Source of the DNA: Promethearchaeota archaeon
GTDB lineage: Archaea; Asgardarchaeota; Lokiarchaeia; Sigyniarchaeales; SOKP01
Assembly: GCA_019058015.1 (NCBI GenBank)
Contig: JAHLWH010000122.1
Span: forward strand, 1 to 51,868
Length of the DNA stretch: 51,868 nt
Direction: 5' to 3'
Below the pieces are notes generated by a model that saw only the letters and a program-made list of their open reading frames with translations, searched no databases and was not told where the DNA came from. Positions 9,891 through 16,803 of the stretch are shown here, piece after piece. Each line of letters starts with the position of its first letter. Positions within the stretch are counted from its first letter, which is position 1. Both the position numbers and the translations under genes were made by a program.

Positions 9891-11057
9891 TCACCTCAAG
9901 GGTTCCTTTCCTAATATTAGAATTTCTGTCCATAGACTGCCTCCGAATCCCATAGCTAAGGATTTTTCTACATCAGGAATTTGTCGTTTATCTCCTCGCC
10001 CCATAACTTGGATTGCCGCCTCTGCAACACGAATTAATGCAGTAGCACCAATAGGATTAGTACTCAATACACCTCCTGATGGATTTACCGGTAATTCTCC
10101 ACTCATTTGAGTAATACCCTCATCCAGTAATTTTCCACCTTCTCCAAATTTACAAAAACCTAATGCTTCAGTCCAAGCAAGCTCACTCCAAGAAGTGGGT
10201 TCATATATTTCTGCAACATCTAAATCTTTTACCGGATCTGTAATTCCAACCTTTTTATAAGCTTTTCTAGATGCAATTGTTGCAGTTGGAAGATCAAACA
10301 TTGCATCATCAGTACCAAAGGTGTAATAATGGGCAGTTTCTACAGCTTGAATCCATGCTGGATTATCGGTTATATTTTTCGTTTCTCCTTCATTAGCATA
10401 AATAACTGCACATGCACCTTCGCTCTGCGGACAACAATCATGAAGCCTCAATGGATATGAAATAGTTTGGGATTTCATAACATCCTCAACTGTTAGATCA
10501 GGCATTTTTAAATGAGCAAATGGATTATTCGCAGCGTTTCGACGATTTTTTACGGTAACCCTTGCAGCTTGTCCAGGAGTAATTCCATATTTATGTTGAT
10601 ACATACTAGCCATAAGAGCGAGTGGTCCTAAAGCTCCTGCTAAAGAAGGTCTTTCCCATACTGGATCGAAAGCTGTGATAATACCAGTTGTGGCACCACC
10701 TTCTTGCAATTTTTCCCAACCTACGATTAAAACTTTATTATATATTCCTGATGCCACATTATGATACCCGCATATCGCTAACGAGGAGCCTGTAGTTCCT
10801 CCTGTGGCGACTTTAACAACTGGTTTTAGATATCCTGGTGCTGCATCTATTCCGCACCACATCTCAGAGAAATTAATTCCTTCGAAGTGATCCATATTTC
10901 CAATTATTATTGCATCAATATCATCAGGTGCGAGTTGAGCATCATCAAGAGCCATTTTTACAGCTTCATATATCATTTCGGGGATATTAACATCTCTTCT
11001 TTTGCTTCTATGCTTCGTTTGACCTATACCTACTATTGCAACATCATGTTTTGCCAT
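9891..11057 (-). CDS. Thiolase-fold protein (SCP2/Ltp2-like thiolase superfamily)
   Basis: AIVGIGQTKH...VATGGTTGSSLAICGYH...YEALGFC-like TEALGFCKFGEGG...NPSGGVLSTNPIGATALIR. Confidence 0.85.
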   Translation of the reverse strand: MAKHDVAIVGIGQTKHRSKRRDVNIPEMIYEAVKMALDDAQLAPDDIDAIIIGNMDHFEGINFSEMWCGIDAAPGYLKPVVKVATGGTTGSSLAICGYHNVASGIYNKVLIVGWEKLQEGGATTGIITAFDPVWERPSLAGALGPLALMASMYQHKYGITPGQAARVTVKNRRNAANNPFAHLKMPDLTVEDVMKSQTISYPLRLHDCCPQSEGACAVIYANEGETKNITDNPAWIQAVETAHYYTFGTDDAMFDLPTATIASRKAYKKVGITDPVKDLDVAEIYEPTSWSELAWTEALGFCKFGEGGKLLDEGITQMSGELPVNPSGGVLSTNPIGATALIRVAEAAIQVMGRGDKRQIPDVEKSLAMGFGGSLWTEILILGKEPLR

Positions 11058-12469: not shown

Positions 12470-13291
12470 ATGAGTGAATTTGATTTTCAGGATATCCTTT
12501 ATGAGAAGGAAGATAATGGTATTTGCACAATTACATTCAACAGACCTGAAAGAAGAAATGCAGTAACTTATTTAACCTTTTATGAAATTGGGCTGGTTCT
12601 AGAAGATATGGAAAAAGATAAAAATGCTAAAGTTTTAATAATTACTGGAAATCCAGAAGGGAGAGCCTTTTCATCAGGGGGTTATTTCAAGCCATCAATA
12701 TTGAATAATATAAGAGATGAAATTAAGCAAGAAATTGATTTAATGGATATCGCTCAAAAAAAAATCTGCATGAAATTTTGGAAATTTTATAAGCCTGTTA
12801 TTGTAGCCATTAATGGTTTGGCTATAGGCGGGGGAATAACAATGCCCTTATCAGGTGCAGATCTAATTTTTATGGCTGAAGATGCTTGGCTAGGATTTTA
12901 TTTTGGAAAGAGAGCCATTATACCAGAATTTGGTTCCTCTTTTATTTTGCCATTTTATGTAGGGTTTCAAAAAGCAAAAGAAATTGTATATTTTGGCGAA
13001 AAAATATATGCTCAAGAAGCTTATGAACTTGGACTTGTAAATAAAGTCTTGCCTAAGGACGAACTAATTCCATACGCTCGAGAACAAGCTTTACGGTTGA
13101 TTCCTCCTAAGGGTCCAAGTTTGTCAATAAAATTAATGAAAAAAACCATGCATGCTTATTTCCTTGAAATCATGGATAAAACTTTAGATTTGGAAAATAG
13201 AGGTCTTAGAAAAGCTTTTACTTCATACGATTTTAGAGAATCAATGAACGCACTTAAGGAAAAAAGAGACCCAGTATTTAAAGGGAAATAA
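12470..13291 (+). CDS. Enoyl-CoA hydratase/isomerase family protein
   Basis: ITFNRPERRNAV...GRAFSSGGYF...AINGLAIGGGITMPLSGADLIFMAEDAWLGF. Confidence 0.9.
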   Translation: MSEFDFQDILYEKEDNGICTITFNRPERRNAVTYLTFYEIGLVLEDMEKDKNAKVLIITGNPEGRAFSSGGYFKPSILNNIRDEIKQEIDLMDIAQKKICMKFWKFYKPVIVAINGLAIGGGITMPLSGADLIFMAEDAWLGFYFGKRAIIPEFGSSFILPFYVGFQKAKEIVYFGEKIYAQEAYELGLVNKVLPKDELIPYAREQALRLIPPKGPSLSIKLMKKTMHAYFLEIMDKTLDLENRGLRKAFTSYDFRESMNALKEKRDPVFKGK

Positions 13292-13567
13292 ATTAATTCA
13301 ATCGATTTTTCAAAATTTTTATTTCTTATTATTACATTCAATTAAAATAATTAAAATTTTAGTTGAAATTATAATATCGATGTAAGAGACTTTTTTCAAT
13401 TCATACTTGAAGATTTACATGAAATAGAAAAAAAATAGAATTAAAAGTTTTTCCTCAGACATTTAAAAATTTCTATTAATTATCGCAGACTGGGGTTTTT
13501 TATTTATAAGGCAATATTAATATTTAAGATAAATGGTTAAATTTATTATATTCAAGGAGATATAGAA

Positions 13568-14632
13568 ATGAACATTAAATTAGATAAAATCAAGCATCCT
13601 TGGTACGATCCTAGAGAGGATGTTGACGACAAATATATTGAGGAATTAGCGGAAAGCATCAAAAAAGATGGCTTATTAAATCCTATAATAGTTAAAAGTA
13701 CAGAAGATGGAATGTACGAAATCATAGCAGGAGGTCATCGATTAAGAGCGGTTAAAAAATTGGAATGGACTGAAATTGAAGCTAAACTAATGGATATTGA
13801 GGAATCTGAAGCATCGATTCTCGCTATTAAAACGAATATACTACAAAAGAATTTGACAGACATTGAAGAGGGTAAGGCAATTAAAAGAATAATTGAAAAA
13901 TTCAGTTATACTCAAAGCGAGATTGCAGATAAATTAGGGAAGAGTCCAAGTTGGGTTAGTAATAGGTTAGCTTTGATTCTCAATGTTTCGCAAAGTGTTC
14001 AAAACGCCTTAAAGGAAGAGAAGATATCAACTTCTCATGCAGTACTTTTATCGAAACTCAGTAAGAGAGATCAAGATAATTTCTTAAAATATATTATATC
14101 GAAAAAATTGAATATAAACGATGCTAGAGATGCGTTGAAAAAATATGAAAATAAGACCATATACACCATAGGGTATCAAGGGAAAGATTTAGATACATTT
14201 ATTGAAATATTAAAAGATAATAAAATCGACCTACTTATCGATATAAGAGAATCTGGTAAGAGTACTAGAAAACCAGTATTCAATTCAGAAATTTTAAAGA
14301 GAGAATTTAGCAAAACTAACATAGAATACATTCATAAACAAAAATTAGGAGTAATTTACGAAAGCAGAGTCCCTTACATTAAAGGATATATTTCACACGA
14401 TTGTTTTAAAGGTTGGTATGAATGGCATTTAGACGATATCGACTTTAATATCGAAGAATTTGTGAATTTTCTCAAAAATAATGGAACATGCTGTTTAATG
14501 TGTATGGAAGAATTCTCTAAACCAAAAAAACAACAAAAATACTATTGCCATAGAGATTTTTTGGTAGAAAAGATTTTAAATTTTAAGTCAGAAGATCCAT
14601 TATATTCCTTTGACGAGAGAATAGACTTGTAG
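13568..14632 (+). CDS. ParB/Srx-like N-terminal domain with HTH, fused to C-terminal DUF488
   Basis: GLLNPIIVK...IIAGGHRLRAVKKL (GxxRxxA-type motif) + TQSEIADKLGKSPSWVSNRL (KorB-like HTH) + TIGYQGKDLDTFIEILKDNKIDLLIDIRE...CLMCMEE...YCHRDFL (DUF488). Confidence 0.85.
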   Translation: MNIKLDKIKHPWYDPREDVDDKYIEELAESIKKDGLLNPIIVKSTEDGMYEIIAGGHRLRAVKKLEWTEIEAKLMDIEESEASILAIKTNILQKNLTDIEEGKAIKRIIEKFSYTQSEIADKLGKSPSWVSNRLALILNVSQSVQNALKEEKISTSHAVLLSKLSKRDQDNFLKYIISKKLNINDARDALKKYENKTIYTIGYQGKDLDTFIEILKDNKIDLLIDIRESGKSTRKPVFNSEILKREFSKTNIEYIHKQKLGVIYESRVPYIKGYISHDCFKGWYEWHLDDIDFNIEEFVNFLKNNGTCCLMCMEEFSKPKKQQKYYCHRDFLVEKILNFKSEDPLYSFDERIDL

Positions 14633-14722
14633 GATGCCAAAATAATTATTAAATTTATACACAGTCAGTTTTTATAAACATTAATTACTTCTTATTATAA
14701 AGATTGTATTTAGGGGATTTTA

Positions 14723-15547
14723 ATGAGTTGGGAAAAAAGAGAAATTCTTTTAATAGCTAAAACTTATCCAGAAAGAAGTCAAAAATACGGAAATACAGTT
14801 TGTACTGCGGGGATAATGGAAGATACAAATGAATGGGTTCGAGTTTATCCCATTAATTTAAATGTTTATCTTCGTAAAAAATTAAAGAAATTTGTTCGAT
14901 TTAAAGCAGAGATAAGAAAAAACAAAAGTGAAATGATAAAAAGAAAAGAATCATATAAAATTCGAGAGAAATCAATAAAAATAACCGACGATAGTCTAGT
15001 AGATCCGAAAGTAAAAGGTGTCTGGGAAGAAAGAACTAAAATATTAGAAAAAAGTCTTTCCGAATCTATGGAATTTTTAAAAAATCAATTTGAAATTAAA
15101 AGAATGTCATTAGGGATAATCAAGCCACATCAAAAATCAATAAAATTTTTAATAGAAAAACCCGTTGATAATGTAGAAATCGATGTTATTAAAGAAGTCC
15201 AATTAAATCTTTTTGGAGAACAAGTAAGAAAAGTAGATAAAATAGAACATGCATTTTCTTACCGATATAAATGCAATATAGAAAATTGTAAAGGTCACAA
15301 AATGATATGTATCGACTGGGAATTATTAGAATCATTTAGAAAGTGGAGAAAAACATACAAAACTCCACAAAAATTGGAATTTGCATTAATTAATAGATAT
15401 AACGACTGGATGATTAAAGAACGAGATCTATATCTTGTTGTTGGCACAATCTGGCGATATAAAACTTGGATTATAATTGGCCTATTTTATCCTCCAAAAA
15501 AAGGACAAAAAACGCAGAAAAAACTTAGTTCATTTTTTAAAAAATAG
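14723..15547 (+). CDS. Uncharacterised protein with C-x4-C-x-G-H...DWE motif and C-terminal PIP-box
   Basis: YKCNIENCKGHKMICIDWELLE; C-terminus TQKKLSSFFKK matches QxxLxxFF. Confidence 0.7.
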   Translation: MSWEKREILLIAKTYPERSQKYGNTVCTAGIMEDTNEWVRVYPINLNVYLRKKLKKFVRFKAEIRKNKSEMIKRKESYKIREKSIKITDDSLVDPKVKGVWEERTKILEKSLSESMEFLKNQFEIKRMSLGIIKPHQKSIKFLIEKPVDNVEIDVIKEVQLNLFGEQVRKVDKIEHAFSYRYKCNIENCKGHKMICIDWELLESFRKWRKTYKTPQKLEFALINRYNDWMIKERDLYLVVGTIWRYKTWIIIGLFYPPKKGQKTQKKLSSFFKK

Positions 15548-15589
15548 AAATGTGAGATGATAAAATAATAATGGGGAAGAATTTATATT

Positions 15590-16390
15590 ATGACCAACCG
15601 ATGTCTTAACTTAAATTATCGAAATCTAAGAAATGGGCAGAGATTATATTATTCTTTTAACCACGATGAAGCTTTACTCTCTTGGTATTATGAGAAAAAT
15701 AAATTAAATAAAGGTAATTTTTTCCTTATAACAATAGATGCCCACATAGATTGGACTGATCTGGCTAAAGAAGAATTAGTAGAACTAAAAAAATTTAAAG
15801 AACGACAAAAAAATCTTGATAATAATAATGAGGATTTAAGTGAATCAGATGACCCACACCTACAAAACTTATCTGAATTAAGGAAAATTATTGAAAATTC
15901 ATTTAGAGGGGATAATGTCTCATTTATTGTGGCTTCAATGGAATTAGGATTAATAGATGATGTATTAATTATATCTCCTAATATAAATGATCTTGAAATC
16001 CCAGAAACTTATGAAGATATGCAAGGAATTCAGCACAAAATTTATCATATACATTCTATTAGAAGTTTATGGTATCCATATGGGAGAGCAGTATTGAATG
16101 ATGATTTCAACAAAAGATGTCTGGAGATTCGGAATCATCTATATTCGAATCCATATATTGTAGACTTTGATTTAGATTATTTTACTTATTCTCGTGATAA
16201 TAAGGAATTTGTTATTAATGAAAAACACTTTAAAATAATTTTTAACGATTCAAATTTTTATAATTTATTATCTAAGGCAAGTGTTATCACAATTGCATTA
16301 GAGCCAGGTTGTTGTGGTGGTGTTCAAAATAGTGCGATTATTTTTCACAAAATAACCAGTTCTATTTCAAATCGATTAGGAAGTTTGTAA
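15590..16390 (+). CDS. UPF0489-like (arginase/deacetylase-fold related) protein
   Basis: FFLITIDAHIDWTDL...IVDFDLDYFTYS...ITIALEPGCCGG pattern of acidic/His metal-ligand-like motifs. Confidence 0.65.
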   Translation: MTNRCLNLNYRNLRNGQRLYYSFNHDEALLSWYYEKNKLNKGNFFLITIDAHIDWTDLAKEELVELKKFKERQKNLDNNNEDLSESDDPHLQNLSELRKIIENSFRGDNVSFIVASMELGLIDDVLIISPNINDLEIPETYEDMQGIQHKIYHIHSIRSLWYPYGRAVLNDDFNKRCLEIRNHLYSNPYIVDFDLDYFTYSRDNKEFVINEKHFKIIFNDSNFYNLLSKASVITIALEPGCCGGVQNSAIIFHKITSSISNRLGSL

Positions 16391-16471
16391 TTTTTTTTTG
16401 AAATTTTTTTTAAAAAATATTACTCACCCTTCTTAGATAAAGACCAGAATATTGTAAATTTTAATAAATCA

Positions 16472-16627
16472 ATGAAAAAAAACATGCATTCTTATATCCT
16501 TGAGATCCTAGAAAAAACTTTAGATTGGGAAAATAGAGGTCTTAGAAAAGCTTTTACTTCATATGATTTTAGAGAATCGATGAATGCACTTAAGGAAAAA
16601 AGAGACCCTGTATTTAAAGGGAAATAA
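16472..16627 (+). pseudogene. Truncated second copy of enoyl-CoA hydratase C-terminus
   Basis: MKKNMHSYILEILEKTLDWENRGLRKAFTSYDFRESMNALKEKRDPVFKGK* vs 13136..13291; about 12 mismatches in 156 nt by hand, similarity continues past the stop. Confidence 0.9.
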
Positions 16628-16803
16628 ATTAATTTAATTGAATTTCTAAAATCTTAATTTCTAATTATCAAAATCATTTAATATAAATGAAATAATCCTC
16701 TAATTTTAAAAAAAAAATTCACCTATTTGATATTTTAAAAAAAAATATTAAAACGAGAATAAATTAATTATGACAAAAAATATATTACTGGTAATAAAAA
16801 AAA

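Follow-up and report, generated by a model that had tools for sequence, protein, structure and literature searches.

Results

Three genes at a Lokiarchaeal locus

The window, meaning the whole stretch of 51,868 nucleotides of Lokiarchaeal DNA that we analyzed, carries three co-directional open reading frames separated by 90 bp and 42 bp. Beta-oxidation/thiolase-type genes lie on one side of them and a run of SCP2-like and alcohol-dehydrogenase-like genes on the other. This agrees with the initial annotation, which had described three closely spaced genes on one strand. The first two genes are referred to as M19A and M19B, and the third as gene 3 (Table 1).

Table 1 Features of the locus, in window coordinates
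Feature	Position	Strand	Remark
Upstream repeat copy	13130..13357	+	3' end of enoyl-CoA-hydratase-type gene (12470-13291) and trailer
Inserted segment with all three genes	about 13358..16465	.	~3.1 kb, missing in two same-genus genomes
M19A ORF	13568-14632	+	354 aa
ParB_N in M19A	about 13571-13840	+	Pfam 2e-19
HTH_ParB in M19A	about 13850-14149	+	Pfam 1e-21
DUF488 in M19A	14189-14569	+	Pfam 4e-13
DUF488 invariant C-x-E ... C-H-R, putative active site	14501..14554	+	alignment of 40 homologues
M19B ORF	14723-15547	+	274 aa; predicted tandem OB-fold protein, PDC-M19B family
Internal QLNLF, second clamp-motif-like peptide	15200..15214	+	loop between predicted OB domains
C-x4-C-x2-H-x3-C, possible zinc site	15272..15310	+	C184, C189, H192, C196
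C-terminal PIP box QKKLSSFF	15515..15538	+	M19B residues 265-272
UPF0489-like ORF (gene 3)	15590-16390	+	266 aa; arginase-fold type
Downstream repeat copy	16466..16693	+	shortened duplicate of upstream gene's 3' end

M19A couples a conserved DUF488 domain to an exchangeable N-terminus

All three domains of M19A scored above the Pfam cut-off, as expected from the proposed fusion of ParB, HTH and DUF488. Its ParB_N part carries the phosphate-binding motif GGHRLRA, and the N-terminal half matches Noc structures (phmmer, 4e-32). No canonical ParB C-terminal dimerisation domain was found among the Pfam hits; DUF488 occupies the C-terminus. The PADLOC model PDC-M19A (PDLC04505, E 1e-20) covers the C-terminal half alone, matching the DUF488 part at residues 182-340.

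Eleven DUF488 residues are invariant in the 40 homologues, including C129, E131, C144, H145 and R146 (numbered along the aligned stretch). AlphaFold modeled DUF488 as a small alpha/beta domain (pLDDT 90, pTM 0.85), for which searches of the PDB by sequence and by fold returned no significant match; two phosphatases (2f46 and 6byf) appeared in the fold search only at the non-significant E-values of 0.55 and 0.93. DUF488 is a putative member of the rhodanese-phosphatase superfamily, with its Cys-based Rossmann-like active-site fold. Judging by the invariant residues, it is probably an enzyme.

While DUF488 is the constant part of M19A, the N-terminal DNA-binding part is exchanged between lineages. 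The ParB and HTH domains are confined to Asgard and Sulfolobus copies. Elsewhere we observed a MazE/AbrB-type N-terminus (L043, MazE-type, E 1e-7; weakly in L042), HTH_59 (L115) and an HTH-like stretch seen by eye in Streptomyces; L014-L016 and many viral copies have yet another module. Since ParB had no match in any bacterial or viral M19A examined, it lies outside the core mechanism. An archaeal ParB-HTH-DUF488 protein has been reported to bind CTP (PMC12704722). In a related genome, a ParA/MinD-type ATPase gene lies about 1.3 kb from the ParB-HTH-DUF488 gene (G004:C13, L019:15231-16148), and a separate ParB_N gene is found near another M19 pair of the same genome (G004:C10, L018:5000-6025). 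There is no parA at the window locus.

M19B is predicted to contain tandem OB folds

No Pfam family was found above the cut-off in M19B, which matches PADLOC PDC-M19B (PDLC04508, E 5e-47) over residues 5-263. Its closest named relative, from a Candidatus Lokiarchaeota MAG, is 70% identical. An AlphaFold model made with 39 sequences (pLDDT 89, pTM 0.86) found OB-fold DNA-binding proteins as its best Foldseek matches in the PDB, namely P. abyssi RPA (E 6.5e-6), HIN-200 (probability 1.00), LEF-3, CST and Teb1; from a viral structure library it retrieved LEF-3 proteins. The Foldseek probabilities for RPA, HIN and LEF-3 were 0.9-1.0, but because the TM-scores were low (0.2-0.34, with 7-15% identity) the OB match denotes a fold class and does not demonstrate homology. 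Thus, M19B is predicted to be a tandem OB-fold protein, and the model suggests that it may bind ssDNA or branched DNA. By sequence, a large profile of M19B had no match in the PDB. A short match to kinesin/EB chimeras (E 0.0015) was dismissed, and it was gone with the larger profile.

All 8 close Asgard homologues keep the four residues of the possible zinc site, which are missing from several bacterial ones. The loop between the predicted OB domains is poorly ordered (mean pLDDT 50-68), and its QLNLF peptide is identical to the Pol V clamp-motif sequence given in PMC11139829. At the same alignment column, 39/57 bacterial/viral homologues have Q..[LIM]F, while Q..[LIM] is present in 18 of the 19 archaeal proteins, 6 of them retaining the F. 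That archaea conserve Q..L is unexpected, as a beta-clamp motif should serve no purpose there. One Lokiarchaeal M19B (L017:437-2420, on the same contig as L011) is broken by an in-frame TGA next to an open M19A, by decay or sequencing error.

M19B tails resemble the clamp-binding motifs of the host

The C-terminus of M19B, ...QKTQKKLSSFFKK, fits the PIP box definition Qxx-aliphatic-xx-aromatic-aromatic (PMC11139829), so the PIP box claimed for the 274-aa protein is a textbook one. The QKKLSSFF tail lies in an accessible segment and has a pLDDT of 47-58 in the model. The tails of the host's own expected PCNA partners look alike, with QTSLEQFFK in the FEN1-type protein, QRKLFSFI in a second XPG-type protein and NKKISEFL in RNase HII. 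Other archaeal M19B carry PIP-type tails such as QKTMNSFW (L017), SSLDQFV (L014/L015), RKITEFF (L042), KTTLDQFF (L043) and NVKLDDFI (pSOG1). Within the last 25 residues, the PIP pattern occurs in 9/19 archaeal M19B versus 5/107 control ORFs (p 7e-6, a value inflated by related sequences); restricted to the last 12 residues, it is found in 6/19 archaeal and 0/57 bacterial/viral proteins. The host genome has two PCNA-type genes, whose C-termini are nearly identical (L170, L171; G000:C208, C204), and also two genes of the XPG/FEN1 type, each with a PIP-like tail (L167, L168).

Bacterial and viral M19B proteins end instead in peptides such as EQLSLF (Fischerella, Calothrix), QQISLF (Pseudomonas), EQISLF (Gordonia phage), LQPSLF (Massilia) and RQGSLF. 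A relaxed beta-clamp pattern, Q..[LMIF][FLIW] within the final 12 residues, was present in 42/57 of them, and in 22/34 when counted by 60%-identity clusters. Among the other ORFs at these loci, the count was 5/822 (Fisher p 3e-53, likewise inflated by relatedness). The DUF488 partners had it in 1/55 cases, and 3.6 were expected from shuffles. The strict form, Q..LF, was found in 29/57 of these M19B and in 0/822 control ORFs. None of the 19 archaeal M19B had a beta-clamp motif in the last 12 residues. There was no recognisable tail in two close Asgard copies (L018, L019), nor in most of the divergent ones (L044-L048).

In a tree built without the tails, a single branch parts the archaeal from the bacterial/viral copies (support 98/91); the switch from PIP box to beta-clamp motif therefore counts as one phylogenetic contrast. 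Even so, both tail types have been kept across deeply diverged copies. EndoMS/NucS offers a precedent: its archaeal forms have a PIP tail, and those of Actinobacteria a clamp motif (PMC8228993). As a prediction, clamp binding of M19B through its tail is well supported by these motifs, and it would be expected to occur in vivo.

M19A and M19B form a conserved pair in archaea, bacteria and phages

Two genes, M19A and M19B, make up the conserved unit. We sampled 77 non-redundant loci from Asgard genomes, the Sulfolobus plasmids pSOG1 and pBEU9E1, bacterial plasmids (of Rhizobium, Pseudomonas, Burkholderia, Massilia, Streptomyces, Arthrobacter, Fischerella and others), Gordonia phages and IMG/VR contigs. 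Prophage-like contigs are among these sources. A DUF488 gene lay <=300 bp from M19B at 74 of these, the exceptions being L044, pSOG2 (L052) and a Natronococcus plasmid (L139). The two genes are co-directional or convergent, and often overlap. For these two families, the gene-neighbourhood search suggested earlier thus revealed co-occurrence across archaea, bacteria and phages. Among 58 genomes, comprising the host's own and its relatives, M19B was present in 8, with DUF488 adjoining in all 8. A search of viral contigs with the single M19B protein found no match; alignment-based searches were needed to detect homologues.

The Sulfolobus islandicus plasmids differ from each other, as pSOG2 has M19B without a ParB-DUF488 gene in the stretch examined, unlike the related pSOG1 (L064). 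On Sulfolobus plasmids, a third gene overlaps M19B (L064:4852-5355, L051:4864-5355). Its product looks PD-(D/E)xK-like by eye (IEID...FEMK), and its pSOG1 copy had no Pfam match. In Gordonia phages of the Nymphadora group (L058:3033-7101), M19B and DUF488 correspond to gp43 and gp42, annotated just as hypothetical; the immunity repressor and integrase genes flank them.

M19A and M19B could represent a toxin-antitoxin-like pair, in which M19B blocks the clamp or ssDNA, and M19A regulates and neutralises it through an antitoxin-like N-terminus (AbrB/MazE, HTH or ParB). The exchangeable DNA-binding modules, such as those of L043 and L115, would fit this idea, and clamp-binding peptides can inhibit bacterial growth (PMC7261172). 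We nevertheless consider it quite unlikely: many pairs are convergent and hence not one operon, pSOG2 seems to have M19B alone, and DUF488 retains an invariant putative active site.

The pair was probably acquired as a mobile element

The segment carrying the three genes is missing from the corresponding sites of two same-genus genomes (G004:C8, L162, and G001:C46, L163), where the flanking genes are kept; the hydratase is 98% identical in G004 and 88% in G001. The blastn breakpoints fall at 13357/16466 relative to G004 and 13350/16466 relative to G001. The segment is bounded by a direct repeat of 228 nt with 88% identity; the downstream copy encodes 53 aa that are 87% identical to the C-terminal end of the upstream gene's product. 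In a second Asgard genome (G010, L013), the M19A/M19B pair also lies between direct repeats (512 columns, 87% identity), here derived from the 3' end of a glycosidase-type gene (L013:7532-8036 and 10304-10814). No comparable flanking repeat was found within 5 kb at the other Asgard loci.

Because the same order of gene, cassette and shortened copy of the gene end occurs in two separate cases, these sequences suggest that a circle with a copy of the gene end was inserted, perhaps via homologous or site-specific recombination. Integrase-type insertion of an island was also considered; the insert has no integrase gene.

The best reading is that the Lokiarchaeon acquired M19A and M19B as a small mobile gene pair. 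Evidence of mobility comes from the empty sites, the flanking duplications in two genomes, the carriage by plasmids and phages, and the patchy spread (16/228 Asgard genomes). This bears on two alternatives. The pair could be a chromosomal DNA-repair factor whose processing of the host's own lesions is stimulated by the clamp, and EndoMS/NucS shares its tail logic; a patchy, mobile pair with empty sites, found in few close relatives and on plasmids and phages, makes this very unlikely. Alternatively, the pair could load on clamp-bound DNA and aid the replication or persistence of its carrier, with the ParB-like parts regulating or partitioning. Its carriage on Sulfolobus plasmids and on conjugative plasmids of Rhizobium, Burkholderia, Pseudomonas and Arthrobacter, its place between repressor and integrase in Gordonia phages, the archaeal ParB fusion and, in L019, the nearby gene for a ParA-type ATPase all suit such a maintenance role. 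We regard it as somewhat unlikely, as Asgard copies occupy differing chromosomal places, mostly amid ordinary genes, bacterial M19A lacks ParB, and pSOG2 has M19B without M19A in the stretch examined.

Gene 3 is probably a passenger

The initial annotation had joined a UPF0489-like gene to the other two as a three-gene cassette. By the refuting condition set with that annotation, this grouping fails and that of M19A with M19B passes; among the M19 loci examined, the UPF0489-like gene adjoins the pair only in the window. The assignment to UPF0489 itself stands in part: the Mn-binding motifs of the UPF0489 arginase BipC (EEHxE, DxHxD and DIDLD; PMC12707348) have counterparts in gene 3 in FNHDE (H and E alone kept), DAHID and DFDLD, but the Pfam score is below the gathering threshold (E 0.036; 14.9 vs 27 bits). 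Matches to gene 3 were found in 3/228 Asgard genomes, which are its own, one with a homologue and one with a fragment; among the close relatives, its own genome alone has it. The homologue, 38% identical and in a distant Asgard genome, is the sole other substantial relative, and does not adjoin an M19 pair.

The shared strand, the 42 bp gap and the common insert would suit a three-gene system with the UPF0489-like enzyme as a working part. However, the other M19 loci examined had no gene 3 homologue beside the pair, and the 227 other Asgard genomes yielded a single substantial homologue, which is unlinked to M19. Since the gene is not conserved with the pair, we reject such a system as most improbable, and gene 3 is probably a passenger.

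Discussion

A model for the M19 pair

Our model, to which we give even weight for and against, is that M19 is a mobile two-gene module, here with one passenger, that is tethered to the sliding clamp and brings DUF488 to replicating DNA. The tandem OB folds of M19B would hold ssDNA or branched DNA while its C-terminal peptide docks on the host clamp, PCNA in archaea and the beta-clamp in bacteria, so that M19B would be carried along replicating or repair-active DNA. M19A would couple DUF488 to a swappable DNA-binding part, which is a ParB-type CTP clamp with HTH in archaea, possibly allowing CTP-gated DNA loading, and an AbrB-type domain or various HTHs elsewhere. Together, the pair would place DUF488 at the clamp, where it would process or modify nascent DNA or DNA ends, and this action could interfere with the replication of competing viruses or plasmids. 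Burroughs and Aravind (2023), in a study of the rhodanese-phosphatase superfamily, reportedly propose a role in processing DNA ends, within conflict systems, for some members of a RapZ-C/DUF488/DUF4326 clade; that work may already describe part of the M19 pair.

In this model, pairing, mobility and the clamp-motif tails come from sequence, and the OB fold from prediction. Clamp binding in vivo, the binding of ssDNA, the chemistry of DUF488 and a benefit in defense or inter-element competition are our inference, the last because of the mobility, the patchy spread and the PADLOC listing. The clamp-binding-type tail and the pairing across archaea, bacteria and phages support the suggestion, made when the locus was first annotated, of a DNA-linked, defense-like module, in which defense itself would be the presumed role. 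More speculatively, and with considerable doubt, PDC-M19 might be a cross-domain immune or inter-element competition module that detects replicating DNA via the sliding clamp, with an OB-fold sensor riding on PCNA or the beta-clamp, possibly via two peptides. The sensor would then bring in a DUF488 enzyme to alter nascent strands or DNA ends. We found no description of such sensing of the replication state through a clamp tether in the literature searched.

The clamp-tethered module would link mobile defense-like genes, sliding clamps and ParB CTP switches across Asgard archaea, phages and plasmids. M19B has clamp-type peptides fitted to the host clamp in archaea and in bacteria, atop a predicted RPA-like core, and its tail suggests an undescribed route by which a defense-like module could attach to replicating DNA. 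Moreover, the pair has gone in behind ordinary genes, whose ends are duplicated.

Comparison with known systems

Both window proteins match the models of PADLOC PDC-M19 strongly, and their genes are adjacent, although the N-terminal module of the PADLOC model differs from the ParB and HTH of archaeal M19A. The entry gives no mechanism, and we did not find the clamp tails of M19B described. PADLOC PDCs are putative candidates, most of them awaiting validation (PMC12988326). Because our literature search found no publication naming PDC-M19, no defense phenotype is on record and none is known for it. Kaljevic et al. 2025 (PMC12704722) treat an archaeal ParB-HTH-DUF488 protein with the same domain set as M19A; in the accessible sections of their survey it stands as a single protein, with no mention of an M19B partner or of clamp tails. 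The claim that the genes were undescribed is consequently not borne out, with genes 1-2 catalogued and CTP binding reported for an archaeal ParB-HTH-DUF488 protein.

The N-terminal half of M19A resembles the Noc/ParB CTPase clamps, with DUF488 replacing their C-terminal dimerisation domain. The closest folds to the M19B model are those of archaeal RPA, HIN-200 and LEF-3, at the low TM-scores and identity noted above. Gene 3 has metal motifs in common with the UPF0489 peptide arginases BipC and OspR; it is sub-threshold and has no adjoining RiPP genes. EndoMS/NucS is, as we propose for M19B, a clamp-dependent DNA protein with lineage-specific tails; unlike M19, it is a nuclease encoded by a single gene, without a DUF488 partner, and is not known as a mobile pair. 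M19 is therefore a catalogued but uncharacterised pair, whose new feature is the clamp tails on M19B, and these give a candidate defense pair a concrete, testable handle.
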